DNA from: Nonlabens xylanidelens
Lineage (GTDB): Bacteria; Bacteroidota; Bacteroidia; Flavobacteriales; Flavobacteriaceae
Reading direction: 5' to 3'
DNA length: 64,000 nucleotides
Assembly (NCBI RefSeq): GCF_002934445.1
Contig: NZ_PTJE01000001.1
Coordinates: 1 to 64,000, forward strand
Below, one piece after another: positions 5,941 through 60,369 of the stretch. A program made the position numbers and the translations under genes. Each line of letters starts with the position of its first letter. Position 1 is the first letter of the stretch. The notes beneath the pieces are model-generated. The model was not told the DNA's origin. It was given only the letters and a program-made list of their open reading frames with translations, and did no database searches.

Positions 5941-7202
5941 TGACTTACAAGACTGACCATAACTTTGCATTACAATTAGATCAAGAAGATTCATTATCTC
6001 GCTTTCGCGAAAGCTTCCATATTCCAAAGCATAAAGATGGAACAGACTCTATCTATTTATGTGGTAATTCTCTAGGCTTGCAACCGAGACAGACTAAAGA
6101 CTTTTTAAATAAAGAGCTAGAAGACTGGGCAAATCTAGGTGTAGAAGGACATTTTCATGCAAAGCATCCATGGATGCCGTATCATGAATTTTTAACAGAA
6201 ACTACCGCTCAGATAGTAGGTGCAAAACCTCATGAAGTAGTCATTATGAATACACTGACTACTAACTTGCATTTAATGATGGTTAGTTTTTATCAGCCTA
6301 AAGGTAATCGCACTAAAATTCTTATAGAAGGAGATGCTTTCCCAAGTGATCGATATGCAGTTGCATCACAAATTAAATTTCATGGTGGCGATCCAGAAAC
6401 CGATTTAATCACCTGGCAACCTAGACCTAGCGATCATACACCATCATTTGAAGACTTAGAAGTTATTTTAAAGAATCAAGGTGACGAGATTGCACTAGTT
6501 ATGATAGGTGCGGTAAATTACTATACAGGACAACTTTTTGAACTTAAAAAAATAGCCGATTTATGTCATTCTTACGGCATCATGGTCGGTTATGATTGTG
6601 CGCACGGTGCCGGTAATGTAGACTTACAGCTGCACGATTCTGGAGCAGACTTTGCCGTATGGTGTACATACAAATACATGAATGCTGGCCCTGGTAGTTT
6701 GGGTGGTTGTTTTGTACATGAGCGCCATGCAGATAATGCCGACTTACCACGTTTTACTGGCTGGTGGGGACATAATAAAGACACACGTTTTAAAATGCGC
6801 GACGATTTTGAACCTATGCGCGGTGCCGAAGGTTGGCAATTATCAAATCCTCCTATATTGAGTATGGTAGCTATAAGAGCAAGTCTAGATCTTTTTGCCC
6901 AAGCAGGTTTTGAAAACCTAAGAGAGAAGTCAATTAAAATGACTAATTATCTAGAATTTTTATTACAAGAACTGGATGGTGATCGCATTTCTATTATTAC
7001 CCCTAGCGATTCTAAAGATCGCGGTTGTCAATTATCACTAGCTGTTAAAAATGCCGATCGATCACTTTTTGACGCCATCACAGCAAAAGGCGTTATTGCA
7101 GACTGGCGTGAACCAGATGTAATACGCATTGCACCTGTTCCTTTATATAATAATTTTGAAGACTGCTGGAGGTTTGTGGATGTGTTGAAGTCGGAGTTAT
7201 GA
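5940..7202 (+). CDS. kynU: kynureninase
   Basis: This 420-aa PLP enzyme of fold type I hydrolyses L-kynurenine or 3-hydroxykynurenine to anthranilate or 3-hydroxyanthranilate plus alanine, in the cytoplasm. Diagnostic are CGNSLGLQP near the N-terminus, the PLP-binding Asp region GYDCAHGAGNVDL (about 218-229), the Schiff-base lysine in WCTYKYMNAG (Lys245) and TGWWGH. Its start overlaps the upstream stop by one base, and the next gene overlaps its end by four (ATGA). Residues 21-25 (RFRES) are a translated copy of the dispersed palindrome in the N-terminal extension. Together with kmo and the amnD-like gene it marks tryptophan catabolism. Confidence 0.96.
   Translation: MTYKTDHNFALQLDQEDSLSRFRESFHIPKHKDGTDSIYLCGNSLGLQPRQTKDFLNKELEDWANLGVEGHFHAKHPWMPYHEFLTETTAQIVGAKPHEVVIMNTLTTNLHLMMVSFYQPKGNRTKILIEGDAFPSDRYAVASQIKFHGGDPETDLITWQPRPSDHTPSFEDLEVILKNQGDEIALVMIGAVNYYTGQLFELKKIADLCHSYGIMVGYDCAHGAGNVDLQLHDSGADFAVWCTYKYMNAGPGSLGGCFVHERHADNADLPRFTGWWGHNKDTRFKMRDDFEPMRGAEGWQLSNPPILSMVAIRASLDLFAQAGFENLREKSIKMTNYLEFLLQELDGDRISIITPSDSKDRGCQLSLAVKNADRSLFDAITAKGVIADWREPDVIRIAPVPLYNNFEDCWRFVDVLKSEL
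6000..6015. repeat. dispersed palindrome, copy 2 (inside kynU)
   Basis: CGCTTTCGCGAAAGCT, one mismatch at the end. It is read in frame as RFRES (kynU residues 21-25). Confidence 0.9.
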
Positions 7203-7798
7203 TTAGAAATTTAGTATCATCGATGTTCTGCTTCCTGCTACTTAACAATGTGGAATCTCAGGAAAATAAAACTATGGAATCTGAAATTCTACAGTCTTAC
7301 ATGATCTCTATTCAAGATTTTAATAAAAAAACCGAATTTTATAAAAACACAGAAGTTATAGTTTTTGATAATACTGATGAAGATTTAATTGAATATTATC
7401 TTAAGAGTTGGAAAATAACAAAAGCTGATACCCTAATTAATAGAGCTGACTCTACAGATATAAACTCTCCTTACATTTTAAATAAGAAGTTAAAGAAAAT
7501 ACTAATTAAGGAACTTAAAAAAGACGAACCGATCGATTGGAACAATGTTCAATTTCCAGATAATTTTAGACTGGTTGAATATAAGAAAGCGCCTATTCTT
7601 GAAAACCTTAAACTTTCTAAAAGGAAAATAAGTCTTTTGTTATCTAAGCCAGTTATTTTTCAAAATGGAACTATGGCAATTTTTAGAGCTTGGGAAATAT
7701 ATGGAAGTAACATATCAGGAACACCGACTTTGCAATTCTATAAAAAGAAAGATTCTAAGTGGGTGAAATTTTCAGAAATAGCATGGGGTTCTTTTTAG
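7199..7798 (+). CDS. exported protein of unknown function in the kyn cluster
   Basis: This 199-aa protein starts within the kynU stop (ATGA overlap). The N-terminus MIRNLVSSMFCFLLLNNVES looks like a short signal peptide, and the rest is Lys/Ile/Asn-rich with no motif I recognise; the C-terminal part (FRAWEIYGSN, YKKKDSKWVKFSEIAWG) resembles a small beta-sheet domain seen in exported Bacteroidota proteins. It is noticeably more AT-rich than kynU and kmo, so it may be a later insertion into the catabolic cluster. No function is proposed. Confidence 0.7.
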   Translation: MIRNLVSSMFCFLLLNNVESQENKTMESEILQSYMISIQDFNKKTEFYKNTEVIVFDNTDEDLIEYYLKSWKITKADTLINRADSTDINSPYILNKKLKKILIKELKKDEPIDWNNVQFPDNFRLVEYKKAPILENLKLSKRKISLLLSKPVIFQNGTMAIFRAWEIYGSNISGTPTLQFYKKKDSKWVKFSEIAWGSF

Positions 7799-7865
7799 AT
7801 TCTAATAATTAATAATTGAAGATATTCGTCTAGCTTGACGAATACGTTTTGCTACTAAACCGAAT

Positions 7866-8264
7866 ATGAAACTAAAACTACTTCTACAAATCTGGCTTTT
7901 TATATTAGGCTTTTTGAGTTTTGGCAGCCTTTATAATCAATCAGAAGGTTCAAGGTTTAAAATAGCACTAATAGTATCTTTAACTTTTTTAATAAATCTA
8001 TCAATTTATTTTCTTTATATAAAAAAAGAGTTTTTTCTAGTTTTCAAAATCAGCTGCATAACTATAAATTCTATTGTTAGTTTAGTTCTTATATGTCAAC
8101 TAATAGCTTATATATTTATATTATATAAAGGAGCTCAATCCATCATCACAAGTACACAAATAATAAACCTTTGTTTCTCTTTATCAATAGCTATTTTACC
8201 TAGCTATATAGTTTACAAATCTTTGATACTTTCTAAAGAACAATACCGGAATGAAAACAACTAA
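7866..8264 (+). CDS. small four-helix membrane protein of unknown function
   Basis: This 132-aa protein is almost entirely hydrophobic, with about four transmembrane helices (residues about 5-22, 34-51, 60-82, 97-118). It ends 14 bases inside kmo, so the two are probably cotranscribed. Low GC and heavy Ile/Leu use set it apart from the enzymes on either side, as with its upstream neighbour. I do not recognise the family. Confidence 0.65.
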   Translation: MKLKLLLQIWLFILGFLSFGSLYNQSEGSRFKIALIVSLTFLINLSIYFLYIKKEFFLVFKISCITINSIVSLVLICQLIAYIFILYKGAQSIITSTQIINLCFSLSIAILPSYIVYKSLILSKEQYRNENN

Positions 8265-9645
8265 CAAAAAAACTAAAATATTAATCACTGGCGCTGGACT
8301 TTGCGGTTCGCTTTTAGGATTACGACTAGCGCAAAAGGGTTATCATGTAGATATACTTGAGAAAAGACCTGATATGCGCAAAGCAGTAGTAGATGGTGGT
8401 CGTTCTATTAACCTAGCACTTTCTGATCGTGGTCTGGCTGCTTTAAAGTTAGTAGGACTAGAAGACAAAGTCCGTGAGTTATGTATTCCTATGAATGGTA
8501 GATTAATTCACGATGTAGAAGGAAATACTTTTGCTTCTAACTACAGTGGCCGTGATGGAGAATATATCAATTCCATCTCTAGAGAAGAACTTAACAAGCT
8601 ACTACTCGACGAGGCCGATAAATATGAAGATGTTCAAATAGACTTTGATGATAAGGTTACAGCCGTTGATTTAAAAAACGCATCGGTTACATATTACGAT
8701 TCTGAAACTGGCACTGATAAAGAATGGAAGGCTGATATACTTTTAGGAACGGATGGTGCAGGCTCTGTAGTCCGTAAAGCAATGATGAAACAGCGTGATT
8801 TTCTTTTTTCACACAGTATGAATTGGTTGCCTCATGGTTATAAAGAATTGAGCATACCACCTACAGCAGATGGAAAATGGCGTATAGAAAAGAATTTTCT
8901 ACACATCTGGCCACGTGGTGGTTTTATGTTAATCGCCTTACCTAATCTAGATGGTAGTTTTACACTAACTCTGTTCATGCAATATGATGGAGATGGACCA
9001 GCGTTTAATAATATAAATACAGATCAAGAGATAAAAGACTTTTTCAACACTTACTTTAAAGATGTCATAGAACATATTCCAGATCTTGTAGAGCAATACA
9101 AAGCAAATCCATCGCCATCATTAGGCACTGTGCGTTGTTCTCCATGGACAGCAAATAGTACAAGTCTTATTTTAGGAGATGCTGCACACGCGATTGTACC
9201 TTTCTATGGACAAGGAATGAATGCGAGTTTTGAAGATGTAGTTGTCTTTGATGAAATGATCGATACAAATGAAACCTGGGCAGATGCATTCAAATCATTC
9301 TCTACCACTAGAAAACCAGATGCAGATGCTATCGCAGATCTTGCTCTAGATAACTTTGTAGAGATGAGGGATAGCGTTGCAAACCCTAACTTCCAATTAA
9401 AACGACAGATTGAGATGCGTTTAGAATCCGCTTTCGCGAAAGCGGAATACCAATCCAAATACTCACTTGTAACGTTCCCTGAAAAAGGAATAGGTTATGA
9501 AGAGGCTATGCTTAAAGGACGTGCCCAAGACAAAGCAATCTTGTGGTTGCTAGAAAATGGAGACATAACCGTTAATGATGAATTGGATTCATTGTTGAGC
9601 AAGATAAAGGTAAAGACGGAAGAGGTTCTTTGGTTGCGTGGATAA
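8251..9645 (+). CDS. kmo: kynurenine 3-monooxygenase
   Basis: This 464-aa FAD-dependent aromatic hydroxylase converts L-kynurenine to 3-hydroxykynurenine with NADPH and O2. Seen are the Rossmann FAD motif GAGLCGSLLG (about 14-23), the DGGRSINLALSDRG segment typical of KMO, LLGTDGAGSVVRKAM, and the second FAD motif GDAAHAIVPFYGQGMN (about 309-324). The C-terminal helix region differs from animal KMO and lacks an obvious membrane anchor. Residues about 394-398 (AFAKA) are a translated dispersed palindrome in the C-terminal region. It lies downstream of kynU and upstream of the amnD-like gene. Confidence 0.96.
   Translation: MKTTNKKTKILITGAGLCGSLLGLRLAQKGYHVDILEKRPDMRKAVVDGGRSINLALSDRGLAALKLVGLEDKVRELCIPMNGRLIHDVEGNTFASNYSGRDGEYINSISREELNKLLLDEADKYEDVQIDFDDKVTAVDLKNASVTYYDSETGTDKEWKADILLGTDGAGSVVRKAMMKQRDFLFSHSMNWLPHGYKELSIPPTADGKWRIEKNFLHIWPRGGFMLIALPNLDGSFTLTLFMQYDGDGPAFNNINTDQEIKDFFNTYFKDVIEHIPDLVEQYKANPSPSLGTVRCSPWTANSTSLILGDAAHAIVPFYGQGMNASFEDVVVFDEMIDTNETWADAFKSFSTTRKPDADAIADLALDNFVEMRDSVANPNFQLKRQIEMRLESAFAKAEYQSKYSLVTFPEKGIGYEEAMLKGRAQDKAILWLLENGDITVNDELDSLLSKIKVKTEEVLWLRG
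9429..9444. repeat. dispersed palindrome, copy 3 (inside kmo)
   Basis: Exact CGCTTTCGCGAAAGCG, translated in frame as AFAKA near Kmo residue 394. Confidence 0.95.
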
Positions 9646-9721
9646 AAGTAAAATCGAGATTTAATAAAGACCCAAACGTTTTAAAAACCTTTGGGTTGGG
9701 ATATAGAAAAAAAATAACAAC

Positions 9722-10126
9722 ATGGCAGTATTAAAAGATAAAGCGACACCTAGAGGTAAATATCCACACGTAAAACGTGTGGGTGATTTTCTTTTCGTAT
9801 CAGGAACTAGTAGTCGTCGAAAAGACAACACTTTTGCAGGCGTAGAAGTAGATGAAATGGGAACCACTAATCTTGATATAAAAGAACAAACTGCAGCGGT
9901 ATTAGAAAACATAGACGCTATTCTCAAAACCGAAGGTGCATCTATAAAAGATGTGGTAGATGTGACTAGCTTCCTAGTAAACATGAATGACTTTGGTGGA
10001 TATAATGAAATCTATGGTACTTACTTTGATTATGATGGACCTACAAGAACAACGGTAGCAGTGCATCAACTGCCACATCCACACTTACTGATAGAGATCA
10101 AAGCGATGGCTTATAAACCGCTTTAA
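9722..10126 (+). CDS. amnD: RidA-family deaminase, probable 2-aminomuconate deaminase
   Basis: This 134-aa protein of the RidA/YjgF family has [20 protein letters not shown] near the N-terminus, SSRRKDN and the closing strand [15 protein letters not shown]. The YPHxKRVGDF...SGTSSRR pattern matches the branch used in 2-aminomuconate degradation (AmnD/NbaF-like) rather than the classical imine deaminase RidA; this is from memory of the family. Position downstream of kynU and kmo supports a role late in the 3-hydroxyanthranilate branch. The dioxygenase, decarboxylase and aldehyde dehydrogenase of that route are not in the window. A bidirectional terminator follows. Confidence 0.85.
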
Positions 10127-10212
10127 AAAGGAATATTTAAGCCTCAAGAAGTGATATGAATAATTATAATAATCAATGAAGGTCTAAATAATTCAATTGA
10201 TTAATAAACACA

Positions 10213-10245
10213 AAAAAGCCTGATCTTAATAAGATCAGGCTTTTT
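10213..10245. terminator. bidirectional terminator between amnD-like gene and nqrF
   Basis: GCCTGATCTT (10218-10227) and AAGATCAGGC (10231-10240) form a perfect 10-bp stem with a 3-nt loop, flanked by A6 and T5, so it can stop transcription from both convergent units. Confidence 0.92.
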
Positions 10246-10267
10246 AATATAGTTGGGTGAATAGTTA

Positions 10268-11566
10268 CTATCCTCCGAAATCATCAAAACGAATATTCTC
10301 AGGATCTACTCCAAAGTCTTCGGCCATTTTACCTACCGCGTTATTCATCAATGGTGGTCCACAGAAATAAACTTCTAGATCTTCTGGAGCATCATGTTTA
10401 GTTAAATATTGATCTATTACTACCTGGTGAATGAATCCTACAAATCCATCTCCTTCTGCATGAATATCATCTTTTACTTTCCAGTTATCTTCTTCAGCTG
10501 GCTCAGAAAGTGCAAGGTAGAATTTGAAGTTAGGGAAGTCACGTTCTAGTGAACGGAAATGCTCAATGTAAAACAATTCTCTTTTAGAACGACCACCATA
10601 CCAGTAAGTCACCTTACGGTTAGTTTTCAATGTTTTGAAAAGCTCATATAAGTGAGAACGCATAGGTGCCATTCCTGCTCCACCACCTACGTAAAGCATT
10701 TCTGCCTCAGAATGGTTGATAAAGAATTCTCCATAAGGTCCAGAAACTATTACTTTATCTCCTTTCTTTTGGTTAAAGATATAAGAACTAGCTACACCAG
10801 GATTAACATCCATCCATCCATTCTTTGCTCTATCCCATGGCGGCGTAGCAATACGCACGTTAAGCATGATTTCACGACCTTCTGCAGGGAAAGAAGCCAT
10901 AGAATAAGCTCTTTCTACCGTTTCGTTATTTTTCATTACAAGTGGCCATAAGTTGAACTTATCCCATTCTGCTTGAAATTTATCTGGCGTTTCATGTTCT
11001 TCTGGGTGAGCCGTGATGTCCATATCTTCAAAGCGTACTTCACACTTAGGAATTTCGATTTGGATATAACCACCAGCTTCATAATGCATATCTTCTGGAA
11101 GAAGAACTACAAATTCCTTAATAAAAGATGCTACGTTATAATTACGTACAACCTCTGCTTCCCACTTCTTGATACCAAAAACTTCTTCTGGAATCTCGAT
11201 TTTCATGTCCTGCTTTACTTTAACCTGACATCCTAATCTCCATCCTTCGGCAATTTCTTTTCTTGTAAAGTGAGGCACCTCAGTAGGTAGAATAGATCCA
11301 CCACCGTCAGATACGATACATTTACATTGTACACAGGTACCACCACCACCACAGGCAGATGGTAAGAATAATTTATTATCACCCAAAGTACCTAGTAGTG
11401 TCCCACCAGAACCTGTAGTAATATCTTTCTCTCCATTTACATTAATAGTAACCGGTCCAGAAGGAAGTAGCTTAGACTTTGCTCCTAGTAAAAGAGAAAC
11501 CAGTAATAAGATAAGTGTAAGAAAAATCACTACACTCGCTAAAATCGTTATCATATTAGAATCCAT
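10268..11566 (-). CDS. nqrF: Na+-translocating NADH:quinone reductase subunit F
   Basis: This 432-aa protein is the NADH-oxidising subunit. It has an N-terminal membrane helix (about 7-28), a [2Fe-2S] ferredoxin domain with ligands Cys72, Cys78, Cys81 and Cys113, an FAD domain with RAYSMASFP and an NADH domain with [13 protein letters not shown] and [11 protein letters not shown]. It passes electrons from NADH through FAD and the iron-sulfur centre to the membrane subunits. It is the last gene of nqrABCDEF and ends at the shared terminator. No apbE (flavin transferase) follows it in the window. Confidence 0.98.
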
Positions 11567-11581
11567 ATCTATGTTTCCTTT

Positions 11582-12196: not shown

Positions 12197-12214
12197 TTTG
12201 TTCTATTTCTTAAA

Positions 12215-12916: not shown

Positions 12917-12935
12917 TGCCGTTGTTTTTTTATAT

Positions 12936-12951
12936 CGCTTTCGCGAAAGCG
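12936..12951. repeat. dispersed palindrome, copy 4 (nqrC-nqrD spacer)
   Basis: Exact CGCTTTCGCGAAAGCG followed by TAACTA, lying in the transcribed spacer upstream of nqrD. Confidence 0.95.
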
Positions 12952-12961
12952 TAACTAACTA

Positions 12962-13687: not shown

Positions 13688-13689
13688 TT

Positions 13690-16330: not shown

Positions 16331-16346
16331 CGCTTTCGCGAAAGCG
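16331..16346. repeat. dispersed palindrome, copy 5 (nqrA/T9SS plug intergenic)
   Basis: Exact CGCTTTCGCGAAAGCG followed by TAACTA, in the divergent intergenic region about 50 nt before the start at 16397. Confidence 0.95.
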
Positions 16347-21153: not shown

Positions 21154-21169
21154 CGCTTTCGCGAAAGCG
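21154..21169. repeat. dispersed palindrome, copy 6 (apaG-pruA intergenic)
   Basis: Exact CGCTTTCGCGAAAGCG preceded by TCT and followed by GGAAC, 15 nt after the apaG stop. Confidence 0.95.
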
Positions 21170-22993: not shown

Positions 22994-23638
22994 TTACTTT
23001 AACGGTAAATGAACCACTTTTTTAGTTTCAAAGAATGGATCTTCAAAAACATCTTCTAGTTCATAGATTTGTGCCTTGGGGAAATCTTTTAATTCTTCTG
23101 TAAGATCACCACCTTTAAGATACAAAATTCCATTTTTTAAGTTGTGACAACTCTCTTTTCTGATTTTATTTCTTACCCAACTTACAAAATCTGGCATATT
23201 AGTCACTGCTCTAGAGACTACAAAATCAAAACGTCCCTTAACTTTTTCTGCTCTTCCATGCTCTGTAGTTACGTTAGTAAGTCCCAACGCTTCAACTACA
23301 GCATCTACTACTTTGATCTTCTTACCTATCGCATCGATAAGATGAAAACTAGTTTTAGGAAACATAATAGCGAGTGGTATTCCAGGAAATCCACCACCAG
23401 TCCCTACGTCCAGTACTCTCGTACCACCTGTTTTATTGGGTAAGCTTTCGCGAAAGCGGACTACAGACACAATTCCTAGAGAGTGTAAAACATGTCGAGT
23501 ATACAGTTGATCGATGTCTTTTCTTGAGATAACATTGATCTGAGCGTTCCATTCTGCATACAAATCACCTAGTCTAGAAAACTGCTCTAATTGATGATCT
23601 GTAATATGCGGAAAATGTTCTTTTATAATTTGATGCAC
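22994..23638 (-). CDS. rsmG: 16S rRNA (guanine527-N7)-methyltransferase
   Basis: This 214-aa protein is the GidB/RsmG methyltransferase, which modifies G527 of 16S rRNA using SAM. The SAM site is VLDVGTGGGFPGIPLA (about 76-90), with the preceding NAQINVISRKDIDQLYTRHV helix and FDFVVSRAVTNM typical of the family. Residues 61-65 (RFRES) just before the core Rossmann fold are a translated dispersed palindrome, in a loop where RsmG proteins vary in length. It has its own promoter back-to-back with that of the aminotransferase. Confidence 0.96.
   Translation of the reverse strand: MHQIIKEHFPHITDHQLEQFSRLGDLYAEWNAQINVISRKDIDQLYTRHVLHSLGIVSVVRFRESLPNKTGGTRVLDVGTGGGFPGIPLAIMFPKTSFHLIDAIGKKIKVVDAVVEALGLTNVTTEHGRAEKVKGRFDFVVSRAVTNMPDFVSWVRNKIRKESCHNLKNGILYLKGGDLTEELKDFPKAQIYELEDVFEDPFFETKKVVHLPLK
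23443..23458. repeat. dispersed palindrome, copy 7 (inside rsmG)
   Basis: AGCTTTCGCGAAAGCG, one mismatch at the end; read on the minus strand as RFRES, RsmG residues 61-65. Confidence 0.92.
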
Positions 23639-27946: not shown

Positions 27947-27962
27947 CGCTTTCGCGAAAGCG
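27947..27962. repeat. dispersed palindrome, copy 8 (trkA/ubiE divergent region)
   Basis: Exact CGCTTTCGCGAAAGCG preceded by TCT and followed by GGAATA, midway between the divergent trkA and ubiE promoters. Confidence 0.95.
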
Positions 27963-32806: not shown

Positions 32807-33874
32807 ATGAGTCACAATATAAAACCAGGTGTTGCCACTGGCGACCAAGTACAAGAGATTTTTAATCATGCAAAAGCAAATGGATATGCACTTCCTGCTG
32901 TTAATGTTGTAGGATCTAACACGGTAAACTCTGTGATGGAGACCGCTGCAGAGTTAAACTCTCCAGTAATTATTCAGTTCTCTAATGGAGGTAGTGTATT
33001 TAATGCTGGTAAAGGTTTAAATAATGACAACCATAGAGCTGCTATTTTAGGTGGTATTGCAGGTGCCGAGCATGTTCACAGACTAGCTGAAGCATATGGA
33101 GCTAGTGTAATTCTTCATACCGACCACTGTGCAAAGAAATTACTTCCTTGGATAGATGGTTTATTAGATGCTAGTGAGGCACGCTTTCGCGAAAGCGGAA
33201 AAAGTTTATACTCTTCACACATGATAGACTTGAGTGAAGAACCTCTAGAAGAAAACATAGAAATATGTAAAAGATATCTAGAAAGAATGTCTAAAATGGA
33301 CATGACTCTAGAAATAGAATTAGGTATTACCGGTGGTGAAGAAGATGGTGTTGATAATAGCGATGTAGATGAGTCTAAATTATACACACAACCAGAAGAG
33401 GTAGCCTATGCTTATGAAGAGCTTATGAAGGTGAGCGATAAATTTACTATCGCCGCAGCATTTGGTAACGTTCATGGTGTATACAAGCCTGGTAATGTAA
33501 AACTTACTCCTAAAATTCTTAAGAATTCTCAAGAATTTATCTCTAAGAAATATAACGTAGAGCATAATCACATCGATTTTGTATTCCACGGTGGTTCTGG
33601 TTCTACACTAGAGGAAATAAGAGAAGCTATAGGTTACGGTGTTGTAAAAATGAATATTGACACAGATCTTCAATGGGCATTTTCTGACGGTGTAAAGAAA
33701 TACATGGATGCTAACAACGATTTCCTACTTTCTCAAATAGGAAACCCTAATGGAGCAGACCTTCCTAATAAAAAATATTATGACCCACGTAAATGGTTGC
33801 GTCATGGAGAAGAGTCTTTTAAAGCTAGACTAAAACAAGCTTTTGAAGATTTAAATAATATCAATACATTATAA
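32807..33874 (+). CDS. fba: class II fructose-bisphosphate aldolase
   Basis: This 355-aa zinc aldolase cleaves fructose 1,6-bisphosphate to the two triose phosphates. Zinc and catalytic residues appear in VILHTDHCAKK (Asp106, His107), NVHGVYKPGN and DFVFHGGSGST; the length and sequence fit the class IIA (E. coli FbaA-type) group. I start at ATG 32807 (MSHNIKPGVATG) because upstream codons fall within the -7 elements. Residues 126-130 (RFRES) are a translated palindrome in the region just after the first zinc ligand helix. Confidence 0.97.
   Translation: MSHNIKPGVATGDQVQEIFNHAKANGYALPAVNVVGSNTVNSVMETAAELNSPVIIQFSNGGSVFNAGKGLNNDNHRAAILGGIAGAEHVHRLAEAYGASVILHTDHCAKKLLPWIDGLLDASEARFRESGKSLYSSHMIDLSEEPLEENIEICKRYLERMSKMDMTLEIELGITGGEEDGVDNSDVDESKLYTQPEEVAYAYEELMKVSDKFTIAAAFGNVHGVYKPGNVKLTPKILKNSQEFISKKYNVEHNHIDFVFHGGSGSTLEEIREAIGYGVVKMNIDTDLQWAFSDGVKKYMDANNDFLLSQIGNPNGADLPNKKYYDPRKWLRHGEESFKARLKQAFEDLNNINTL
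33182..33197. repeat. dispersed palindrome, copy 9 (inside fba)
   Basis: Exact CGCTTTCGCGAAAGCG, read in frame as RFRES (Fba residues 126-130). Confidence 0.95.
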
Positions 33875-36142: not shown

Positions 36143-36172
36143 TGTGTTCCGCTTTCGCGAAAGCGGAACACA
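36143..36172. repeat. dispersed palindrome, copy 10, extended to 30 bp
   Basis: The core CGCTTTCGCGAAAGCG (36150-36165) sits in a perfect 30-bp palindrome with TGTGTTC/GAACACA arms, between the converging YpdA-type and 4Fe-4S genes. Confidence 0.95.
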
Positions 36173-39182: not shown

Positions 39183-39558
39183 GGCTTGATTATTAAAAAT
39201 GACAAATCAACTATTTTCTTTATATTAGAAATAATCACATACCACACTTCGCATAGTACATTATTCCCTAAACATTATATTAAGAAAATATTGACGTTTC
39301 TAATTTACACAATAATCCGTAATACATATCACATTTTAATAACAAGGGTATGTTTAAAAGTTCCGCTTTCGCGAAAGCGAGTTAAAAACAATCTTATACA
39401 CTCTTAAAACAAGCTGGCAAGAAAATTGATATTTCCTACATATTCAAACTCAAAGCTAAAATTGTATTAATTAAATTGTTTTTACCAAAAAAAAGAAGAT
39501 TATTGTAGCTACAACTATATATTAATTCTTTTACGGTAGCTTCTCAACACTTCTATTT
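39183..39558. other. intergenic region with one palindrome, no gene
   Basis: This 376-nt AT-rich gap between divergent genes holds palindrome copy 11 and no open frame or structure I can support. No exact TAnnTTTG element was found in either direction. Confidence 0.6.
39364..39379. repeat. dispersed palindrome, copy 11
   Basis: Exact CGCTTTCGCGAAAGCG, preceded by TTC (opposite orientation of the GGAA flank). Confidence 0.95.
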
Positions 39559-42646: not shown

Positions 42647-43528
42647 TTCTTTCAAACAATCCTCTACAGTCTCATAATCAAACTTAAAACCAGCATCTAA
42701 CAATCGTTGCGGATATACATACCTACTTTTCATTAACAATTCAGATTCTGATCCTATAATCGCGCTGCCCAATTCTACGAGCCATTTAGACTGTGATATA
42801 CCAAAAGGAACAGACAACTCTTTCCTTAAAATACCCATGAATTCATTATTTGGTCTAGGCTGTGGCGCAGTGACATTTACAGATCCTGATAATTGAGATG
42901 AGAATAAAAAGTCGATTGCTTTACAAAAATCATTAATATGAATCCAGCTTATAAATTGGTTTCCATTTCCTTGTTTGCCACCCATTCCTAATCTAGTAAT
43001 GGTTTTCAACTTAGGAAAAGCACCACCATCTTTACCCATGACTATAGAACTACGTATGGCTATTTTACGCACATTTTCTATGGTGGTTGAGTAGAATTCC
43101 TTCTCCCATGATTTGGCAATGTTCATCGAGAAATCATCTCCTATCACACCAGTTTCTTCTGTATTAATAGTCGTTTCAGAATGTACATAAATGGTCGCTG
43201 TACTAGAATTTATAAATACTTTTGGCTTATCTACCGCTTGTTCCATTGCTAGATTTAATACTCGTGTACTGTCTATACGAGAACTTAAAATCGCCGCTTT
43301 ATTTTTATCGGTATAACGACAGTCCACCGATTTTCCTGCTAGATTTATTAACGCGGTAGCACCTTCTAGATGCTCGGTCCACTCTCCTAGATCTTTACCG
43401 TTCCAGTAAGTTGTTTTTGGGTCTCGCTTTCGCGAAAGCGTAACTACAACAAACCCTTTCTCCTCAAAATAATTCTTGAGAGCCATTCCTAAAAAACCGG
43501 TTCCACCAGCGATAACTATTTTTTTCAT
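42635..43528 (-). CDS. TIGR01777-family NAD(P)-dependent epimerase
   Basis: This 297-aa short-chain dehydrogenase-like protein (YfcH group) has the nucleotide motif IAGGTGFLGMALKNYF at residues about 6-21, INLAGKSVDCRYTDKNK and VFINSSTATIYVHSE. I start at ATG 43528 rather than the longer upstream frame because the Rossmann motif begins there. Residues 31-35 (LSRKR), just after the second strand, are a translated palindrome in the third possible phase. Substrate unknown. In flavobacteria such genes are often near photolyase or blue-light genes, as this one is near BLUF. Confidence 0.92.
   Translation of the reverse strand: MKKIVIAGGTGFLGMALKNYFEEKGFVVVTLSRKRDPKTTYWNGKDLGEWTEHLEGATALINLAGKSVDCRYTDKNKAAILSSRIDSTRVLNLAMEQAVDKPKVFINSSTATIYVHSETTINTEETGVIGDDFSMNIAKSWEKEFYSTTIENVRKIAIRSSIVMGKDGGAFPKLKTITRLGMGGKQGNGNQFISWIHINDFCKAIDFLFSSQLSGSVNVTAPQPRPNNEFMGILRKELSVPFGISQSKWLVELGSAIIGSESELLMKSRYVYPQRLLDAGFKFDYETVEDCLKELVS
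43425..43440. repeat. dispersed palindrome, copy 12 (inside TIGR01777 gene)
   Basis: Exact CGCTTTCGCGAAAGCG, read on the minus strand as LSRKR, residues 31-35. Confidence 0.95.
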
Positions 43529-47216: not shown

Positions 47217-47232
47217 CACTTTCGCGAAAGCG
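47217..47232. repeat. dispersed palindrome, copy 13
   Basis: CACTTTCGCGAAAGCG, one mismatch, just beyond the 3' end of the EndoV-like gene. Confidence 0.88.
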
Positions 47233-48503: not shown

Positions 48504-48519
48504 CGCTTTCGCGAAAGCG
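48504..48519. repeat. dispersed palindrome, copy 14 (upstream of HD gene)
   Basis: Exact CGCTTTCGCGAAAGCG, 15 nt before the HD-domain gene start, between it and a -7-like TACCTTTA (48523-48530). Confidence 0.95.
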
Positions 48520-50785: not shown

Positions 50786-50807
50786 TTCCGCTTTCGCGAA
50801 AGCGGAA
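50786..50807. repeat. dispersed palindrome, copy 15, extended to 22 bp
   Basis: Core at 50789-50804 with TTC/GAA arms, between the converging DUF2911 and ferredoxin genes. Confidence 0.95.
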
Positions 50808-52225: not shown

Positions 52226-52359
52226 AGCAACTTGTATGCCTATAATGTGGCTATTGCAAAGGTCGTGATCAATAACTTGTTAAGCAAATGATTAAGAAAA
52301 ATCTAAACGATTCCATGTTTAGATTTTTCTTAATTGGATTATATTAACGGATATTGAAT

Positions 52360-53595: not shown

Positions 53596-53606
53596 AATTC
53601 TTTCTT

Positions 53607-55128: not shown

Positions 55129-55378
55129 TATTTGGATTTGTGATTTTATCCCATAGACGTTCATGAATAAAGTATAAAACCATTTTACTAAAAACCTCTA
55201 TACTTCCTATAGTAAGTGCTACATCTATTTTGGAAGTAAGTAACCACGATATCATTATGGTATCTAATGTACCTATGACACGCCAGCTTATTGTTTTCCA
55301 TAATGCAATTTTCCAGTTGGGATCACTAGATTTTTCATTATCAAAAAATTCAGGTTTATAAATTCTATCTAAAATCAA
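55091..55378 (-). CDS. DUF2061 membrane protein, first gene of the cys operon
   Basis: This 95-aa protein carries the DUF2061 pattern: WKIALWKTISWRVIGTLDTI, SWLLTS and SIEVFSKMVLYFIHERLWDKI, with two membrane helices. Family members are frequently next to sulfate-assimilation genes but lack a defined role. The start appears to be TTG 55378; no ATG or GTG precedes the conserved part. A -7 TAATTTTG (55399-55406) and the palindrome ACCCTATAGGGT precede it. Confidence 0.82.
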   Translation of the reverse strand: MILDRIYKPEFFDNEKSSDPNWKIALWKTISWRVIGTLDTIMISWLLTSKIDVALTIGSIEVFSKMVLYFIHERLWDKITNPNNEKNKQTVRTKV

Positions 55379-55398
55379 AGGAACTTCTATTTAAAATG

Positions 55399-55433
55399 CA
55401 AAATTAAAGAATAAAAGATTTACCCTATAGGGT
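55399..55433 (-). promoter_or_regulatory. cys operon -7 element with palindromic operator
   Basis: TAATTTTG (55399-55406, minus strand) is the -7; the perfect palindrome ACCCTATAGGGT (55422-55433) lies where the -33 element should be. A similar CCTTATAGG (55694-55702) overlaps the -33 region of the small-RNA promoter. A role as binding site for the adjacent Rrf2 regulator is inferred. Confidence 0.6.
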
Positions 55434-55518
55434 TCGTAGAGTAATTATTCAAATAAATATTCTAAGGTGTTTATTTAAATCGTAAAGTCGGTTTAGAAAA
55501 TGAGAAATTGGTAGAAAC

Positions 55519-55542
55519 AAAAAATCCATCTAAGTAGATGGA
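55519..55542 (-). terminator. terminator of the candidate small RNA
   Basis: On the minus strand TCCATCT, ACTT loop, AGATGGA, then T6 (55519-55524). A 7-bp stem, modest but followed directly by the T-run. Confidence 0.7.
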
Positions 55543-55657
55543 GAGTGATTGTTTTTGAACGGCCAGCCGCGAGCAGTTATAATAAGAAAACAGCCCATCT
55601 TAATATCGTAAGCTACTCGCGTTGTGTGACCTATCCAAAACTATTGTTAAAACTTAA
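55519..55657 (-). ncRNA. candidate small RNA or structured leader between rrf2 and the cys operon
   Basis: A promoter (55663-55692) and a terminator (55519-55542) delimit a transcript of about 130 nt. Its core is a long stem: CGCGAGTAG pairs with CTGCTCGCG (9 bp), extended across an internal loop by GGTCA/TGGCC, enclosing a loop of about 35 nt that contains a TAAGA/TCTTA mini-hairpin. A 5' hairpin GTTAA/TTAAC precedes. Being complete with its own promoter and terminator, it looks like a stand-alone RNA, although a cys leader cannot be excluded. I do not recognise a known family: it lacks the S-box core and the 4.5S RNA motifs. Confidence 0.6.
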
Positions 55658-55662
55658 CAGTG

Positions 55663-55692
55663 CAAATATATAACAATTTTTAAACCCTACAA
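55663..55692 (-). promoter_or_regulatory. promoter of the candidate small RNA
   Basis: On the minus strand TTG (55690-55692), 19 nt, TATATTTG (55663-55670), the same -7 sequence as the rRNA promoter. CCTTATAGG (55694-55702) abuts the -33 box. Confidence 0.72.
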
Positions 55693-55792
55693 GCCTTATA
55701 GGATAATATCGTATTAATATTTTGCTAATTAAATTTTGAGGATATGATAATCCTATCACACAAAACTGATTATTTTAATGATTACAGCCTAT

Positions 55793-56200
55793 CTAGATCA
55801 AATCTTTAAGCGTTTGATTTTCTAAAATTGCAAGCGTATTATCTCTTACCTGAATCATTAACTTATTAACAGCACAAGCATCTTCATCCACACAGTCTTC
55901 ACACTTTTCATAGAAATTAAGACTGACACAAGGCAACATAGCAATAGGACCTTCTAAAATGCGATGCACTGTGGACATTCTAATTTTCTCAGGTAATTGC
56001 ATTAGATAATAACCACCACCTTTTCCCTTGCGACTACCTAGAATACTGTTCTTACGTAGTTCTAAAAGAATAGCTTCAAGAAATTTGTGTGGAATTTTTT
56101 CTGACTCTGCAATAGTAGCAATAGAAGTAGGCACCTGATCTTCTTGTCTAGCAAGATAAGTGAGTGCTTTTATACCGTATTTTGTTTTTCTAGATAGCAT
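55793..56200 (-). CDS. Rrf2-family transcriptional regulator with Cys cluster
   Basis: This 135-aa winged-helix regulator begins MLSRKTKYGIKALTYLAR (ATG 56200; the -7 element TAAATTTG at 56204-56211 makes longer starts unlikely and predicts a leaderless mRNA). The recognition helix lies in SIATIAESEKIPHKFLEAIL, and GRKGKGGGYYL-like RKGKGGGYYLMQLP follows. Four cysteines (LPCVSLNFYEKCEDCVDEDAC) could ligate an iron-sulfur cluster as in IscR/NsrR, unlike CymR. Its location beside the cys operon and the shared CCTATAGG-like palindrome suggest control of sulfur assimilation. Confidence 0.92.
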   Translation of the reverse strand: MLSRKTKYGIKALTYLARQEDQVPTSIATIAESEKIPHKFLEAILLELRKNSILGSRKGKGGGYYLMQLPEKIRMSTVHRILEGPIAMLPCVSLNFYEKCEDCVDEDACAVNKLMIQVRDNTLAILENQTLKDLI

Positions 56201-56203
56201 TCT

Positions 56204-56211
56204 CAAATTTA
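56204..56211 (-). promoter_or_regulatory. -7 element of the rrf2 gene
   Basis: TAAATTTG matches TAnnTTTG and ends 3 nt before the ATG; no TTG is clearly placed at -33. Confidence 0.5.
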
Positions 56212-56260
56212 ATACATTCTTAGATTCTACGTTAACAGATAGAAACGTTTCTTTTATCAA

Positions 56261-56984
56261 AACCGATCTACATTAATACAATAGTATTATCTAATCATCT
56301 CACAACTACATATAGTAGTTCTAACCAGTAATTATATAGTAAGAGGTATTAGATTTTCATTCATCATCATGAAACAAGTAATTAAATCAATATAAAATTC
56401 TTTGAAACAATAGATTACACAAGCTCTAACTGTTTCATAGCCATAATACTTATAGCTCTTATCTTAAATAAAAGATCAAGAATAAGATAAACTCATAGCT
56501 ATTAACTACCGGTAGATTGTTGCTAATTAAACTAAAACAGCTCAAAAAAGACAAGCAATAAAACGAATAAAAAGAACAAAAGTTAAAGTAACACACTCAA
56601 ATCAATTAAAATTAATCGATAAACGGCATGAATGATTATTGATCATATGACTAGTTACTCATGTAAAAACAGATGTAATAAATTAGTGTATTGTATATTT
56701 TTTCCTACAAATTAAATTTTATAAATTATTGAAAAACCACTGATTCTTAAAACATTGTTTTAGTTAATGACTTAATTAGAACTGAAAATAAAACAAATTA
56801 TATATTTTTTTTCTTACAAGAAAAAAATCACCAATACTCCTGTAAACAACTGAATATAAATAATTTCCAAAACATCATGTTATCGAAAATACCGATCTAC
56901 TTAACCTAAACACCAATCTTAACCCTTAACTTTGAATGAGTTTTACTTCAAACATAGAACTGCAAAAACCACGAATTTCACTTT
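56261..56984. other. long AT-rich intergenic region, no gene
   Basis: 724 nt without a credible ORF on either strand. A -7 element TAACTTTG at 56927-56934 probably serves the GAF kinase (leader about 45 nt). I see no terminator, repeat or structured RNA in the remainder; its length is unusual for this window. Confidence 0.6.
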
Positions 56985-58190
56985 ATGATTGCAGCACCCT
57001 TGCCACTTAATGAAAAAGCTAGAATGAAGGCATTAGAAAGCCTTAACATTTTAGACTCTTTGCCAGAACAGCAATATGATAATATTACTGAACTTGCGTC
57101 CTATATATGTGGCACTCGTAATGCGGTAATTTCTTTAGTAGACGAGAACAGACAGTGGTTTAAATCTAATCTAGGTATGGCAGTTTGTGAGACGCCACGA
57201 GAGGTTAGTTTTTGTGCACACGCTATTCATAATCCTAGTGAGTTGATGGAAATCCCTAATGCTCTAGAAGACCCTAGATTTAAAAATAATCCACTTGTGC
57301 ATGATAAGGATAATCCTGTAATATTTTATGCAGGTGTACCTATACTAGACCAGACAGGATTTGCGTTAGGAACTCTTTGTGTACTAGATAACAAGCCTAA
57401 AAAACTGAGTGATAAACAAAGAAAAGGCTTACTTAACCTAGCTCAACAGGTTCAAGAGCTCTTAAAACTACACGTACTCAATACAGAGCTTAAAGTGTCT
57501 AGATCCCATTTAAAAAAACACAATGATCTTTTAAAAGATTTTGCAGGTACCGTATCACATGATATGAAAATGCCACTGGCAAATCTTATTGTGACTTCTG
57601 ATATTTTAAATAAAAAATACTCGAGTATTTTAGATGATTCAGGTAGAGAATACCTTAGTTATCTCAAAAAATCTTCTTTATCACTAAGCGATTATATTAC
57701 AAATATTCTTGCTCATTACGAGAGCTCTTCTTATAATGTAGATGACCGTAAAAGCTTTGATGTTAATGATCTACTTGAGAACATTATAGAGCTTATCAAT
57801 ATAAAGCACCATTGCGATATTCACCTGCCAGAATTCAATCATACCATTCACTGCAATCGTGTGGCTCTTGAACAAATATTCCTGAATTTAATAGGTAATA
57901 GCATTAAGTATAACGACAAAGAAGAAACCGTTATAGATTTAAGCATCACTCTAGATGATAGTCATTATATTTTTAAAATTAAGGATAATGGTCGTGGCAT
58001 ACCTGAGGATAAATTAGAAACCATTTTTGATTTATTTTCTACTGTAGGAGAATATGATCGTGAGGGACAGAAAGGACATGGAATAGGGCTCTCCACTGTA
58101 AAGCAGCTCGTAGAAAAATTAGGAGGAGAAATTTCAGTAGACTCCGTATTAGGTAAAAACACCACCTTTACATTTAGTATTGCTCAATAA
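56985..58190 (+). CDS. GAF-domain sensor histidine kinase, soluble
   Basis: This 401-aa protein has no membrane segment or signal peptide. It carries a GAF domain (about 25-165; ISLVDENRQWFKSNLGM, SFCAHAIHNP, FYAGVPILDQTGFALGTLCVLD), a HisKA box with His192 in TVSHDMKMPLANL, and an ATPase domain (NSIKYNDKEE N box, DNGRGIPEDKLE G1, GHGIGLSTVKQLVEKLGG G2). The GAF pattern with CxH (SFCAHA) is common in cytoplasmic kinases of this type. No response regulator is adjacent, so the partner is an orphan elsewhere. Confidence 0.93.
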   Translation: MIAAPLPLNEKARMKALESLNILDSLPEQQYDNITELASYICGTRNAVISLVDENRQWFKSNLGMAVCETPREVSFCAHAIHNPSELMEIPNALEDPRFKNNPLVHDKDNPVIFYAGVPILDQTGFALGTLCVLDNKPKKLSDKQRKGLLNLAQQVQELLKLHVLNTELKVSRSHLKKHNDLLKDFAGTVSHDMKMPLANLIVTSDILNKKYSSILDDSGREYLSYLKKSSLSLSDYITNILAHYESSSYNVDDRKSFDVNDLLENIIELINIKHHCDIHLPEFNHTIHCNRVALEQIFLNLIGNSIKYNDKEETVIDLSITLDDSHYIFKIKDNGRGIPEDKLETIFDLFSTVGEYDREGQKGHGIGLSTVKQLVEKLGGEISVDSVLGKNTTFTFSIAQ

Positions 58191-58195
58191 ATTAA

Positions 58196-58233
58196 GATAC
58201 ATGTTCCGCTTTCGCGAAAGCGGAACATGTATC
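58196..58233. repeat. dispersed palindrome, copy 16, extended to a perfect 38 bp
   Basis: The core at 58207-58222 lies in a perfect 38-bp palindrome with arms GATACATGTTC/GAACATGTATC, between the converging GAF kinase and homoserine dehydrogenase genes; it replaces any ordinary terminator there. Confidence 0.96.
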
Positions 58234-58251
58234 CAATAAAATCATAAGTAC

Positions 58252-59337
58252 TTATCCAGCCACTAAAACCTCTTTACACGTTTTACTCACCTTTATAATA
58301 TCTGACAGTAAACCTCTAGCTGTTACTTCTCTACCAGCACCAGCACCTTTTATCACCAGCGGATGTGACGCATAGCTTTCTGAATAAATTTCAAAGAAGC
58401 CATCACTACCTTTTAACTGCCCAGCTGGACTACTTTTAGGTACAGCTTTAAGCGATACTTTAAGTACTCCATTAACCACATCTAACTCGCCTAGATGTCG
58501 CAATACTTGATCGCTAGCGAGGGCATCTTTCTTCTCCTGCAACACCTCATCTAATAAAGTTACTTGGTCTAGAAACTGATTAAGTGACGCTGTTCTCAAA
58601 GAAGGAATAACTAAATTATCGATTTCTATATCGTCAAATTCTAGTTTTAATCCTGCTTCTCGAGCAAGTACTAATAGTTTTCTAGCCACATCATTACCTG
58701 ATAGATCTTCTCTAGGGTCGGGCTCTGTATAACCATCTTTTAATGCATCGATTACTATTTCAGAAAACGGCTTGTTTTCTTCACTGAAACGGTTAAAAAT
58801 GTAACTTAATGATCCTGAAAAAACACCATTAATAGCAAACAATTGTTCACCGCTATTATAGAGATCTCTTACCGCATTAATGATAGGTAAACCTGCTCCT
58901 ACATTAGTCTCGTACTCAAACTGCAATCCTTTATTTTTAAGAGCAGTGCGTATGACATCATAAAAGGACTGCGATAAGGTGTTTGCAATTTTATTTGCTG
59001 TTATAATATTAAAATTATGATCTAATAATTCAGGATAATGCTGAGACAGCTCTTTACTTGCCGTGGCATCTATTGCTATTTTAGTAACGTCATAAAGGTT
59101 TGCAACTTTATAAAAACTATCACTTTCTCTAACTATAGAGATAGAGCTGAAATCTTCTTTCCATTTTTGTGTCATCCCATTTGGGTCAATTAGTACTCTC
59201 TTTGAATTTGCAAGACCTATAATTTTAAGGTCTAAATTATGTTTGTTTTTAAAAAAGGAATGTGATTGCAGTACTTGATTAATCAACGTACTGCCTACAT
59301 TCCCTATTCCGAATATATATAAATGTATTTGTTTCAT
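58252..59337 (-). CDS. hom: homoserine dehydrogenase
   Basis: This 361-aa oxidoreductase reduces aspartate semialdehyde to homoserine. The NAD(P) motif IFGIGNVGSTLINQVL is at the N-terminus, and the catalytic region GVFSGSLSYIFNRFSEENKP with DGYTEPDPREDLSGNDVARK is characteristic. There is no aspartokinase or ACT domain, so it is the C-terminal (monofunctional) form. The arrangement metY-metX-hom in one operon provides homoserine and its acylation for sulfhydrylation. Confidence 0.95.
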   Translation of the reverse strand: MKQIHLYIFGIGNVGSTLINQVLQSHSFFKNKHNLDLKIIGLANSKRVLIDPNGMTQKWKEDFSSISIVRESDSFYKVANLYDVTKIAIDATASKELSQHYPELLDHNFNIITANKIANTLSQSFYDVIRTALKNKGLQFEYETNVGAGLPIINAVRDLYNSGEQLFAINGVFSGSLSYIFNRFSEENKPFSEIVIDALKDGYTEPDPREDLSGNDVARKLLVLAREAGLKLEFDDIEIDNLVIPSLRTASLNQFLDQVTLLDEVLQEKKDALASDQVLRHLGELDVVNGVLKVSLKAVPKSSPAGQLKGSDGFFEIYSESYASHPLVIKGAGAGREVTARGLLSDIIKVSKTCKEVLVAG

Positions 59338-59358
59338 TTGTGAGTTTTGGATAGATCA

Positions 59359-60369
59359 CTAAATTGTTTCAAGCAATCTGATTTTATTACAAATCGATTT
59401 TGATGTTTTAGGTAAACGACTTTCTATAATCTGACATAGAATTTCTTGTACCTGATCATGTTCTATTAAAAAAGCATCGTGCCCATGAATGGAAGTGATC
59501 TCGTGATAATTAATATCTCGATCTCGCTTTAATAAATGGTACGTCTTTCTATCTTCATGGGCTATAAATAGTCCATCGCTATCTATTGCAACTAGCTCTA
59601 TGGCTGTTTGAGAAGCTGCAATCGTAGGCGCTATCTGGTTATCTGTGCTGGCTTGTGCACTAGATAATAACCTATTGAGCAGCCTATAGGCCGGTAAGGA
59701 AAACCTCTTTTTTAATTCTACTCCATGGTAGTCCAACCATTTTTGAACCTTAAAAGAATTTTCTTCCTTTACATTTCCAAATTTAGAATTTAAGCCTATT
59801 GGCGTTCTATAGAATGTCATCGCATGTTGTCTTGCTAGCTCTACTGGCTTTGTAGAAGTCGCGAGTATATTTTCTTGTATGTGGCAACATGCTATAATCC
59901 AGTCTGTCGCTTTCCAGTCTGCAGCGATAGGTACTATGGTGCCGAATAATTCTGGTTGTTGCGCTAGCATTTCCCATAATATTGTACCACCTATACTACC
60001 ACCTATTCCTAAATCTATAAAGGAAATGTTTAATATGTGTAACGCTTTCGCGAAAGCGGAACCCACATCATACAATGTCCAGTCCTGATAATTAAAAATT
60101 AAATGATCGATGTTACCGTCATAACCATTACCAGGTATGTCAAAGGCGATAATGGTAAATTGAGTCGTATCTATGACTCTGCCATCACCTACCAGCTCTT
60201 TCCACCATTGCGTTACAGAAGAATTTCCTGTAAGTGCATGGTTAACCAGAATGATGGGCGCGGTATGTAAAGCACGCCCAAAAATCTGATAGGAAACACT
60301 AATATCTTGCACTTTTCCTGATCTTAATTTAAAATCAGGAAGCTCGATATATTTTAGCTTGTGAGCCAT
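59359..60369 (-). CDS. metX: MetX-like homoserine O-acyltransferase (alpha/beta hydrolase)
   Basis: This 336-aa alpha/beta-hydrolase fold protein has the MetX pattern: VNHALTGNSSVTQWW, nucleophile Ser125 in GIGGSIGGTILWEML, the acid Asp in LVAIDSDGLFIAHED and the base His in SIHGHDAFLIEHDQV. It should activate homoserine as the O-acetyl (or succinyl) ester. It is shorter than standard MetX and diverges at the N-terminus. Residues 105-109 (AFAKA) are a translated palindrome. It begins where metY ends. Confidence 0.9.
   Translation of the reverse strand: MAHKLKYIELPDFKLRSGKVQDISVSYQIFGRALHTAPIILVNHALTGNSSVTQWWKELVGDGRVIDTTQFTIIAFDIPGNGYDGNIDHLIFNYQDWTLYDVGSAFAKALHILNISFIDLGIGGSIGGTILWEMLAQQPELFGTIVPIAADWKATDWIIACCHIQENILATSTKPVELARQHAMTFYRTPIGLNSKFGNVKEENSFKVQKWLDYHGVELKKRFSLPAYRLLNRLLSSAQASTDNQIAPTIAASQTAIELVAIDSDGLFIAHEDRKTYHLLKRDRDINYHEITSIHGHDAFLIEHDQVQEILCQIIESRLPKTSKSICNKIRLLETI
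60043..60058. repeat. dispersed palindrome, copy 17 (inside metX-like gene)
   Basis: Exact CGCTTTCGCGAAAGCG, read on the minus strand as AFAKA, residues 105-109. Confidence 0.95.

Follow-up and report, generated by a model that had tools for sequence, protein, structure and literature searches.

A 16-bp palindrome iterated across Nonlabens genomes and its possible role as a DNA uptake sequence

INTRODUCTION

Among iterated genomic recognition motifs, the closest described systems are the DNA uptake sequences (DUS) and uptake signal sequences (USS). In Neisseria, the spacing of the sites matches conversion fragments, the sites are conserved in permissive surroundings, and many gained sites are too divergent to have arisen by point mutation (PMC2397512); the DUS receptor is the pilin ComP (PMC3868556), and dialects of the sequence are found across the Neisseriaceae (PMC3630211). 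The uptake sequence of Haemophilus is evenly spaced (Karlin, quoted in PMC1939737), and uptake sequences have weaker flanking segments (PMC7811141). The cyanobacterial palindrome HIP1 (GCGATCGC) is linked to orphan methyltransferases (PMC4390886). Here, we describe the perfect 16-bp palindrome CGCTTTCGCGAAAGCG, which recurs in a stretch of 64,000 nucleotides of Nonlabens xylanidelens (contig NZ_PTJE01000001.1, positions 1 to 64,000; hereafter the window) and throughout the genus, and we discuss whether it may be a DNA uptake sequence.

As far as the cited portions of that literature describe them, DUS and USS share many properties with the Nonlabens motif: they are clade-specific, occur in hundreds to thousands of copies, are evenly spaced in and between genes, are themselves conserved in permissive DNA, and have weaker flanks, dialects and divergent gains. 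The Nonlabens motif differs from them in its perfect 16-bp palindromy and the symmetry of its flanks, in its occurrence in Bacteroidota, and in that its uptake role is putative. It resembles HIP1 as a highly iterated palindrome, but has a different sequence, is twice as long and belongs to a different phylum. The parS and Noc sites, which are read by ParB-type proteins, are also 16-bp palindromes, whereas the Nonlabens motif recurs hundreds of times across the genome, and an extra ParB paralogue is absent from 20 of 23 Nonlabens genomes. Rickettsia palindromic elements are insertions that are translated inside genes; the Nonlabens repeats are likewise translated in genes, but appear mostly as replacements at constant length.

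RESULTS

Strong over-representation of the palindrome is restricted to Nonlabens

Searching the window with up to three mismatches allowed, we found 17 matches to CGCTTTCGCGAAAGCG, 13 of them perfect and 4 with one mismatch (in the MFS, KynU and RsmG genes and at the intergenic position 47217), whereas dinucleotide shuffles of the window gave a mean of 0.04 matches and reached 17 in 0 of 100 cases. The original prediction, made from the sequence alone, had described an iterated element with seven copies translated inside genes in all three phases. Both statements are borne out, the former by the shuffles and the latter by the search and the translation of open reading frames (ORFs), with three in-gene copies in phase 0, three in phase 2 and one in phase 1. 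The remaining 10 copies, on which the original prediction is silent, fall outside the ORFs that reach 100 aa.

The perfect 16-mer occurs 579 times in the source genome (G000, 3.28 Mb), compared with 0 occurrences of a reversed-pattern control, and all 23 Nonlabens genomes searched carry 180–737 perfect copies. When 147 other genera of Flavobacteriaceae were searched with one genome each, perfect copies were present in 17 of them, at 1–12 each, and among 395 genomes sampled from the phylum, the source genome aside, 10 had 1–2 copies. The over-representation of CGCTTTCGCGAAAGCG is therefore strong and restricted to the genus. Palindromic 12-mers with at least two copies were likewise found in 11 of 11 Nonlabens loci versus 2 of 69 other loci, with L053 (Flavobacteria bacterium BBFL7) counted among the 11 by its identity and motif. 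Across 65 non-Nonlabens loci of at least 9 kb, no 11-mer stood out in the way the Nonlabens one does, and at most 3–4 copies were seen among the 40 best rows; this negative result is weak, because the non-Nonlabens ratios (150) overlap those of weaker Nonlabens loci. A different GC-rich repeat, AGCGCAGTCGA or CGCAGTCGAGA, was observed at three copies per 21 kb in L090, L091 and L098, which come from a Flavobacteriaceae metagenome-assembled genome (MAG) and two Winogradskyella.

In a literature search, the exact 16-mer and 14-mer had no match among 5.39 million open-access papers (subscription papers were outside its scope), nothing was retrieved in such papers for an iterated palindrome together with Flavobacteri, and the titles of open-access papers containing both Nonlabens and palindrom suggest that none concerns this motif. 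The palindrome appears to be an iterated genomic recognition motif, a known kind of element.

The full palindrome is the unit of the motif

In 464 kb of G000, there were 88 perfect, 26 one-mismatch, 7 two-mismatch and 2 three-mismatch copies, and copies with 3–4 mismatches were at the background level of control palindromes. The outermost base pair takes about half of the mismatches, namely 24 of 46 in G000 and 22 of 44 in G152, which, like G155, G159 and G149 below, is another Nonlabens genome. In G155 (240 kb), the outer base is relaxed and receives 45 of 53 mismatches; with 22 perfect, 31 one-mismatch and 11 two-mismatch copies, its site density resembles that found in the other species.

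The flanks carry information to about 18 bp on each side, so that the symmetric motif spans about 52 bp in total. Reading outward from intergenic copies, G makes up 1–12% from +3 to +19, and A reaches 0.81 at +3 and 0.82 at +9; the flanks of coding copies show a similar trend in composition. This composition is kept, but the sequence is not. An extended palindromicity was considered and rejected, as the left and right flanks of one copy match no more than expected. Compensatory changes were rare, being found at 3 of 24 two-mismatch sites in the stretches of four species.

The half-site CGAAAGCG lay inside full or near-full palindromes in 206 of 207 cases in G000 and in 178 of 187 in G152. Outside full sites, it occurred once versus 3.8 expected in G000 and 9 times versus 4.7 in G152, where GAAAGCG was also in mild excess (56 versus 39.4 expected). 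The full palindrome is the unit, and half-sites are at most weakly enriched. The lack of flank covariation, the rarity of compensation and the at most weak enrichment of half-sites together point to a symmetric site in double-stranded DNA, neither a hairpin nor a short single-strand signal.

Sites are evenly spaced and concentrated between genes

The spacing of the sites is strikingly even. With a mean spacing of 4.1 kb, the coefficient of variation (CV) in G000 was 0.461, compared with 1.01 in a null model keeping the split between coding and intergenic sites, and the CVs of G152, G155 and G159 were 0.558, 0.435 and 0.491, respectively, compared with 0.92–0.98 in uniform nulls. The values for G000, G152 and G155 were lower than all 2000 random draws; that of G159, which has 19 sites only, exceeded its null minimum of 0.434. 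Only 7 of the 290 gaps in the four species stretches were shorter than 1 kb.

Site density is 7.1-fold higher between genes than within genes, indicating that coding use is tolerated rather than being the role of the element. In the 464 kb of G000, 57 of 121 sites with up to two mismatches and 54 of 114 with up to one were intergenic, shares that are slightly too high because ATG-only ORF calling placed the RsmG copy, which has a GTG start, between genes. Per intergenic base, the density hardly differs between the four gene orientations, so that a role as promoter or terminator is disfavoured. For the 60 coding copies, phase 2 (AFAKA) was preferred with 34, followed by phase 0 with 16 and phase 1 with 10. 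Coding copies in this stretch also tended to lie early in their ORF, with 36 of 60 in its first 40% (binomial p 0.002).

Conservation acts on the DNA of the sites

Comparing G000 with G152, 47 of 114 sites were alignable, and the count leaves out the 67 unaligned ones; 42 were called automatically as kept with at most one mismatch, and two further sites were visibly kept but split by an aligner gap. At 32 gap-free coding sites, third codon positions differed at 5 of 178 positions inside the sites and at 1058 of 2423 beside them. For RsmG, the codons CGC TTT CGC GAA AGC were identical in 22 of 22 Nonlabens sequences (a set that excludes the G162 fragment and the second G150 match, L263) while the adjacent codons varied freely, and this series of codons was present in 0 of 28 outgroups. 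Selection or drive thus acts on the DNA of the sites.

Where gain or loss had left a site in only one of G000 and G152, 7 sites aligned without a gap and 4 were gapped and lay in poorly aligned stretches. Three of the 7 gap-free ones differed from the homologous sequence at 5 or more of the 16 positions.

Copies in genes appear to be replacements rather than insertions

The original prediction had proposed that the element is self-inserting or spread by conversion and has become protein-coding, with an in-frame insertion of 15–18 nt as the expected trace of acquisition. The self-inserting part of this proposal did not hold up, and replacement, by point changes and/or recombination, fits better. 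Four of the six testable window genes had constant length, while Kmo was longer by one residue and RsmG by seven; the MFS gene was compared inside the genus alone. Two of the protein names used below, TIGR01777 and MetX-like, come from the original prediction and not from Pfam, which assigns the former to Epimerase/DUF1731 (nearest solved chain, SDR39U1) and the latter to alpha/beta hydrolase (nearest solved chain, homoserine O-acetyltransferase).

In KynU, no gap was found at residues 17–29 in 80 of 80 homologous loci. Outside Nonlabens (69 rows), the R of position 23 was present in 68 and was preceded by F or Y in 67; the site region takes HYRNQFHIPK-type forms in other genera and reads HFRECFYIPK in human kynureninase. 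The aldolase segment ARFRESGKSL is equal in length to KHFAATGKPL of the best solved homologue, as is TLSRKR of the TIGR01777-like protein to LVSRKP of SDR39U1, its best match, although the second solved homologue has one extra residue directly past the site. The MetX-like protein was of equal length in both alignments with solved homologues, which are distant matches. These four copies probably replaced older residues at constant length. Some of the residues are ancestral: R23 of KynU is shared by homologues outside the genus, human kynureninase has FRE, and SDR39U1 has SRK at the matching place, observations that form part of what the original prediction had named as refuting it.

Nonlabens Kmo is longer by one residue than 77 of 86 other-genus rows, by two than 8 and by three than one. 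In RsmG, 7 extra residues surround the site in the 22 Nonlabens sequences compared with the 28 outgroups, with a conserved Phe kept; this exception does not fit the predicted insertion either, because 21 extra nt are no 15–18 nt unit. As judged from these alignments, the sites appear to have been acquired by replacement, not insertion, as a rule.

Copies outside the genus lie mainly in apparently transferred DNA

Stretches carrying copies were examined from 12 of the 17 other genera. Ten of the 12 were homologous to stretches of other genera, those of G102 and G138 were not, and all twelve copies of G076 lay inside 75 kb. The common part includes a metal/efflux resistance cluster encoding AcrB/CusA-type pumps, outer-membrane efflux proteins (OEP), a multicopper oxidase and a P-type ATPase. 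In a tree of 5 kb of the cluster (midpoint root, some nodes weak), nine other-genus copies were scattered among 19 Nonlabens copies, with L137 pairing with L264, L146 with L274, L138 and L145 with L271, and L142 with L282. This scattered placement indicates that the cluster has been repeatedly exchanged with Nonlabens and has carried its palindromes along. The copies in other genera thus appear to lie mainly in transferred DNA, the resistance cluster included, and the palindrome tags DNA that has lived in Nonlabens.

The resistance cluster carries palindromes at shared positions in L131–L147 from other genera and L264–L283 from Nonlabens. Within its cus genes, two site positions lie 388 bp apart; exactly one of them was occupied in 20 of 27 copies, both in 4 and none in 3, in a count of phylogenetically non-independent copies from which L278 and L279 (of 29 rows) were left out. 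The cus site at query column 1174 falls on an alignment break in L145, L271, L272, L274 and L280, and at this break L145 has about 90 extra bases relative to L138.

Two Nonlabens phages of 35.7 kb each (71 kb) contained 0 sites, which is nearly one observation because both phages are close relatives. The stretch C4:295001-355000 of G149 (L285–L287) is site-poor, with 6 sites (up to two mismatches) in 60 kb, and has RHS-repeat, STAND/NACHT, Mrr (weak) and SbcC-type matches; it may be acquired DNA. Very large genes with raised GC content also lie there in two sets; the first members of the sets are 49% identical, and one gene has an RHS repeat.

Copies of the palindrome in the window

The positions of all copies are collected in Table 1. 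Residues 126–130 of the aldolase copy are counted from the first ATG and become 137–141 from the listed TTG start; LSRKR of the TIGR01777-like protein occupies 31–35 from ATG and begins at 45 with the listed TTG. An orthologous site with 0–1 mismatch was present in 7 of 7 aligned Nonlabens loci for the MFS copy, and in 11 of 11 the sites in KynU (1–2 mismatches) and Kmo (0–2 mismatches) were kept. In L057, a Nonlabens MAG, the MFS reading near the KynU locus is disrupted by a stop and alignment gaps.

Table 1. Copies of the palindrome in the 64-kb window of N. xylanidelens
Copy	Location	Position	Strand	Basis
1 mismatch	MFS transporter (AFAKT, phase 2)	3897..3912	.	sequence search, ORF translation
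1 mismatch	kynureninase KynU (RFRES 21-25, phase 0)	6000..6015	.	sequence search, alignment
perfect	kynurenine 3-monooxygenase Kmo (AFAKA, phase 2)	9429..9444	.	sequence search, alignment
perfect	between ORFs	12936..12951	.	sequence search, ORF list
perfect	between ORFs	16331..16346	.	sequence search, ORF list
perfect	between ORFs	21154..21169	.	sequence search, ORF list
1 mismatch	RsmG/GidB (RFRES 61-65, phase 0)	23443..23458	.	sequence search, Pfam, alignment
perfect	between ORFs	27947..27962	.	sequence search, ORF list
perfect	class II fructose-bisphosphate aldolase (RFRES, phase 0)	33182..33197	.	Pfam, structure-homologue alignment
perfect	between ORFs	36150..36165	.	sequence search, ORF list
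perfect	between ORFs	39364..39379	.	sequence search, ORF list
perfect	epimerase-like TIGR01777-type protein (LSRKR, phase 1)	43425..43440	.	Pfam, structure-homologue alignment
1 mismatch	between ORFs	47217..47232	.	sequence search, ORF list
perfect	between ORFs	48504..48519	.	sequence search, ORF list
perfect	between ORFs	50789..50804	.	sequence search, ORF list
perfect	between ORFs	58207..58222	.	sequence search, ORF list
perfect	MetX-like alpha/beta hydrolase (AFAKA, phase 2)	60043..60058	.	Pfam, structure-homologue alignment

DISCUSSION

With moderate confidence, we favour the reading that the palindrome is a DNA uptake (self-recognition) sequence, the sites of which are spread and kept by transformation. 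Its iteration within one genus, even spacing, permissive placement, site conservation and the G155 dialect match published uptake sequences, and the strong divergence of 3 of the 7 gap-free gained or lost sites agrees with what has been described for Neisseria; the two phages without sites may point the same way, although the IMG/VR contigs and the unaligned part of G000 (below) do not. The motif would then be a genus-wide recognition motif, symmetric in double-stranded DNA, with a 16-bp core and about 18 bp of weakly specified, G-poor and A-rich sequence per side. A surface or periplasmic receptor of Nonlabens would prefer fragments bearing a site, these fragments would recombine into the chromosome, and biased transformation, together with selection, would add sites and preserve them. 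About one site per fragment length (~4 kb) would result, mostly where it is least harmful, and sites within genes would then be translated. The uptake receptor as reader and transformation as drive are the parts of this reading that we infer.

Natural competence has been studied in other Flavobacteriales. A preference for self-DNA is on record for Riemerella columbina (PMC7965970). In R. anatipestifer, uptake relies on ComEC, DprA, ComF and RecA together with four proteins unlike known uptake parts, including adjacent carboxypeptidase-regulatory-like and DUF5689 proteins; pilus homologues were not detected in competent Riemerella, and the uptake machinery of R. anatipestifer is non-pilus (PMC8459023). 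The consulted portions of both papers name no signal for this preference. All 23 Nonlabens genomes have ComEC, and 22 of them have DUF5689. At the one locus inspected, outside the window in G000 (C1:227368-231681; L039:3368-7681), a 947-aa CarboxypepD_reg protein is directly followed by a DUF5689 protein, whose gene spans C1:230221-231681, and by analogy this pair is a candidate receptor. An Exo_endo_phos_3 protein lies just upstream of the pair and a UvrD-type helicase nearby.

Several observations weigh against the uptake reading. ComEC was also found in 10 of 14 control genomes and DUF5689 in 12 of 21 non-Nonlabens genomes, so that these genes do not discriminate: they make uptake possible but do not prove it. 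Our search of the open-access literature returned no report of natural transformation in Nonlabens, and the DUS and USS are non-palindromic in the cited portions of the papers on them; a palindrome suggests a homodimeric protein, which is usually intracellular. Half-decayed copies with 3–4 mismatches are scarce, so that decay is less gradual than in the Haemophilus mismatch spectrum. In addition, IMG/VR contigs include 41 stretches with one or more sites, and sites are no rarer where G000 fails to align with G152 (67 of 114 in ~56% of the sequence), although this portion does not consist of accessory DNA alone. Finally, the Haemophilus sites fall short of the evenness expected of a compaction site (PMC1939737), whereas the striking evenness in Nonlabens helps an explanation by chromosome organisation.

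This explanation is the main rival, and we consider it possible, if rather unlikely: a genus-specific homodimeric DNA-binding protein would bind every ~4 kb and structure the nucleoid, with selection keeping both the spacing and the sequence of its sites. The perfect dyad symmetry of the full-palindrome unit with its symmetric flanks, a spacing more even than random placement would give in all three species stretches that have 64 sites or more, the lack of a clear tie to gene orientation and the frequent either/or use of the two cus positions all agree with it, and the symmetry and evenness in particular keep a dimeric intracellular organising protein in this place. On the other hand, no candidate protein was found, and the turnover and species variants also fit an uptake drive. 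ParB was considered as the reader and rejected, since 20 of 23 Nonlabens genomes have a single ParB_N match and no extra paralogue (three have 2–3), as is the case in most other genera searched, which have one too. The farther-reaching form of the idea, a chromosome-wide lattice in which selection holds a genus-specific dimeric protein at a pitch of ~4 kb and even writes sites into conserved enzymes, strikes us as unlikely; to our knowledge, no fixed-pitch, sequence-defined chromosome lattice is known in bacteria.

The other explanations are considerably weaker. A Chi-type recombination hotspot, palindromic so as to act from both directions, would account for the T/G-rich strand leading into the site, for about one site per 4 kb and for the mild half-site excess in G152. 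Chi, however, is a short oligomer recognised on a single strand, whereas almost all CGAAAGCG lies within full or near-full palindromes and is not over-represented alone in G000; we therefore rejected a Chi-like half-site and regard the hotspot as improbable. Just as doubtful is a HIP1-like palindrome whose upkeep depends on an orphan DNA methyltransferase or some other epigenetic mark, which the iteration and the CGCG/TCGCGA centre would suit: outside full sites, CGCG was below expectation in both G000 and G152, TCGCGA occurred 37 times versus 25.8 expected in G000 and 24 versus 29.9 in G152, and a methylase reading the inner 4–6 bp would leave the 16-bp unit, the flanks and the spacing unexplained.

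A self-inserting or short mobile palindrome that became coding, as in Rickettsia, is very improbable and largely refuted. The additional residues of RsmG and Kmo speak for it, but constant length in the other four genes and the gap-free alignment of 7 gained or lost sites, with the gapped ones confined to poorly aligned stretches, speak against it, and random insertion would not be expected to give even spacing and conservation at the DNA level. An RNA hairpin, terminator or other transcript element is hardly tenable and was disfavoured: although the core can fold and 2 of 5 folded copies had a z-score below -2, the flanks do not covary, compensatory changes are few, a G-T wobble is preserved by 11 of 42 inner mismatches, and use per intergenic base is about equal in all gene orientations.

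As an uptake sequence, the palindrome would have no palindromic precedent, and none from Bacteroidota, in the literature searched. The uptake machinery studied in this group has no pilus, and the receptor that reads the sequence could then be found directly. As an architectural site, the palindrome would form a regular lattice, defined by sequence, along a bacterial chromosome. Under either reading, the motif marks DNA with a Nonlabens history, such as the metal-resistance cluster exchanged with other genera.

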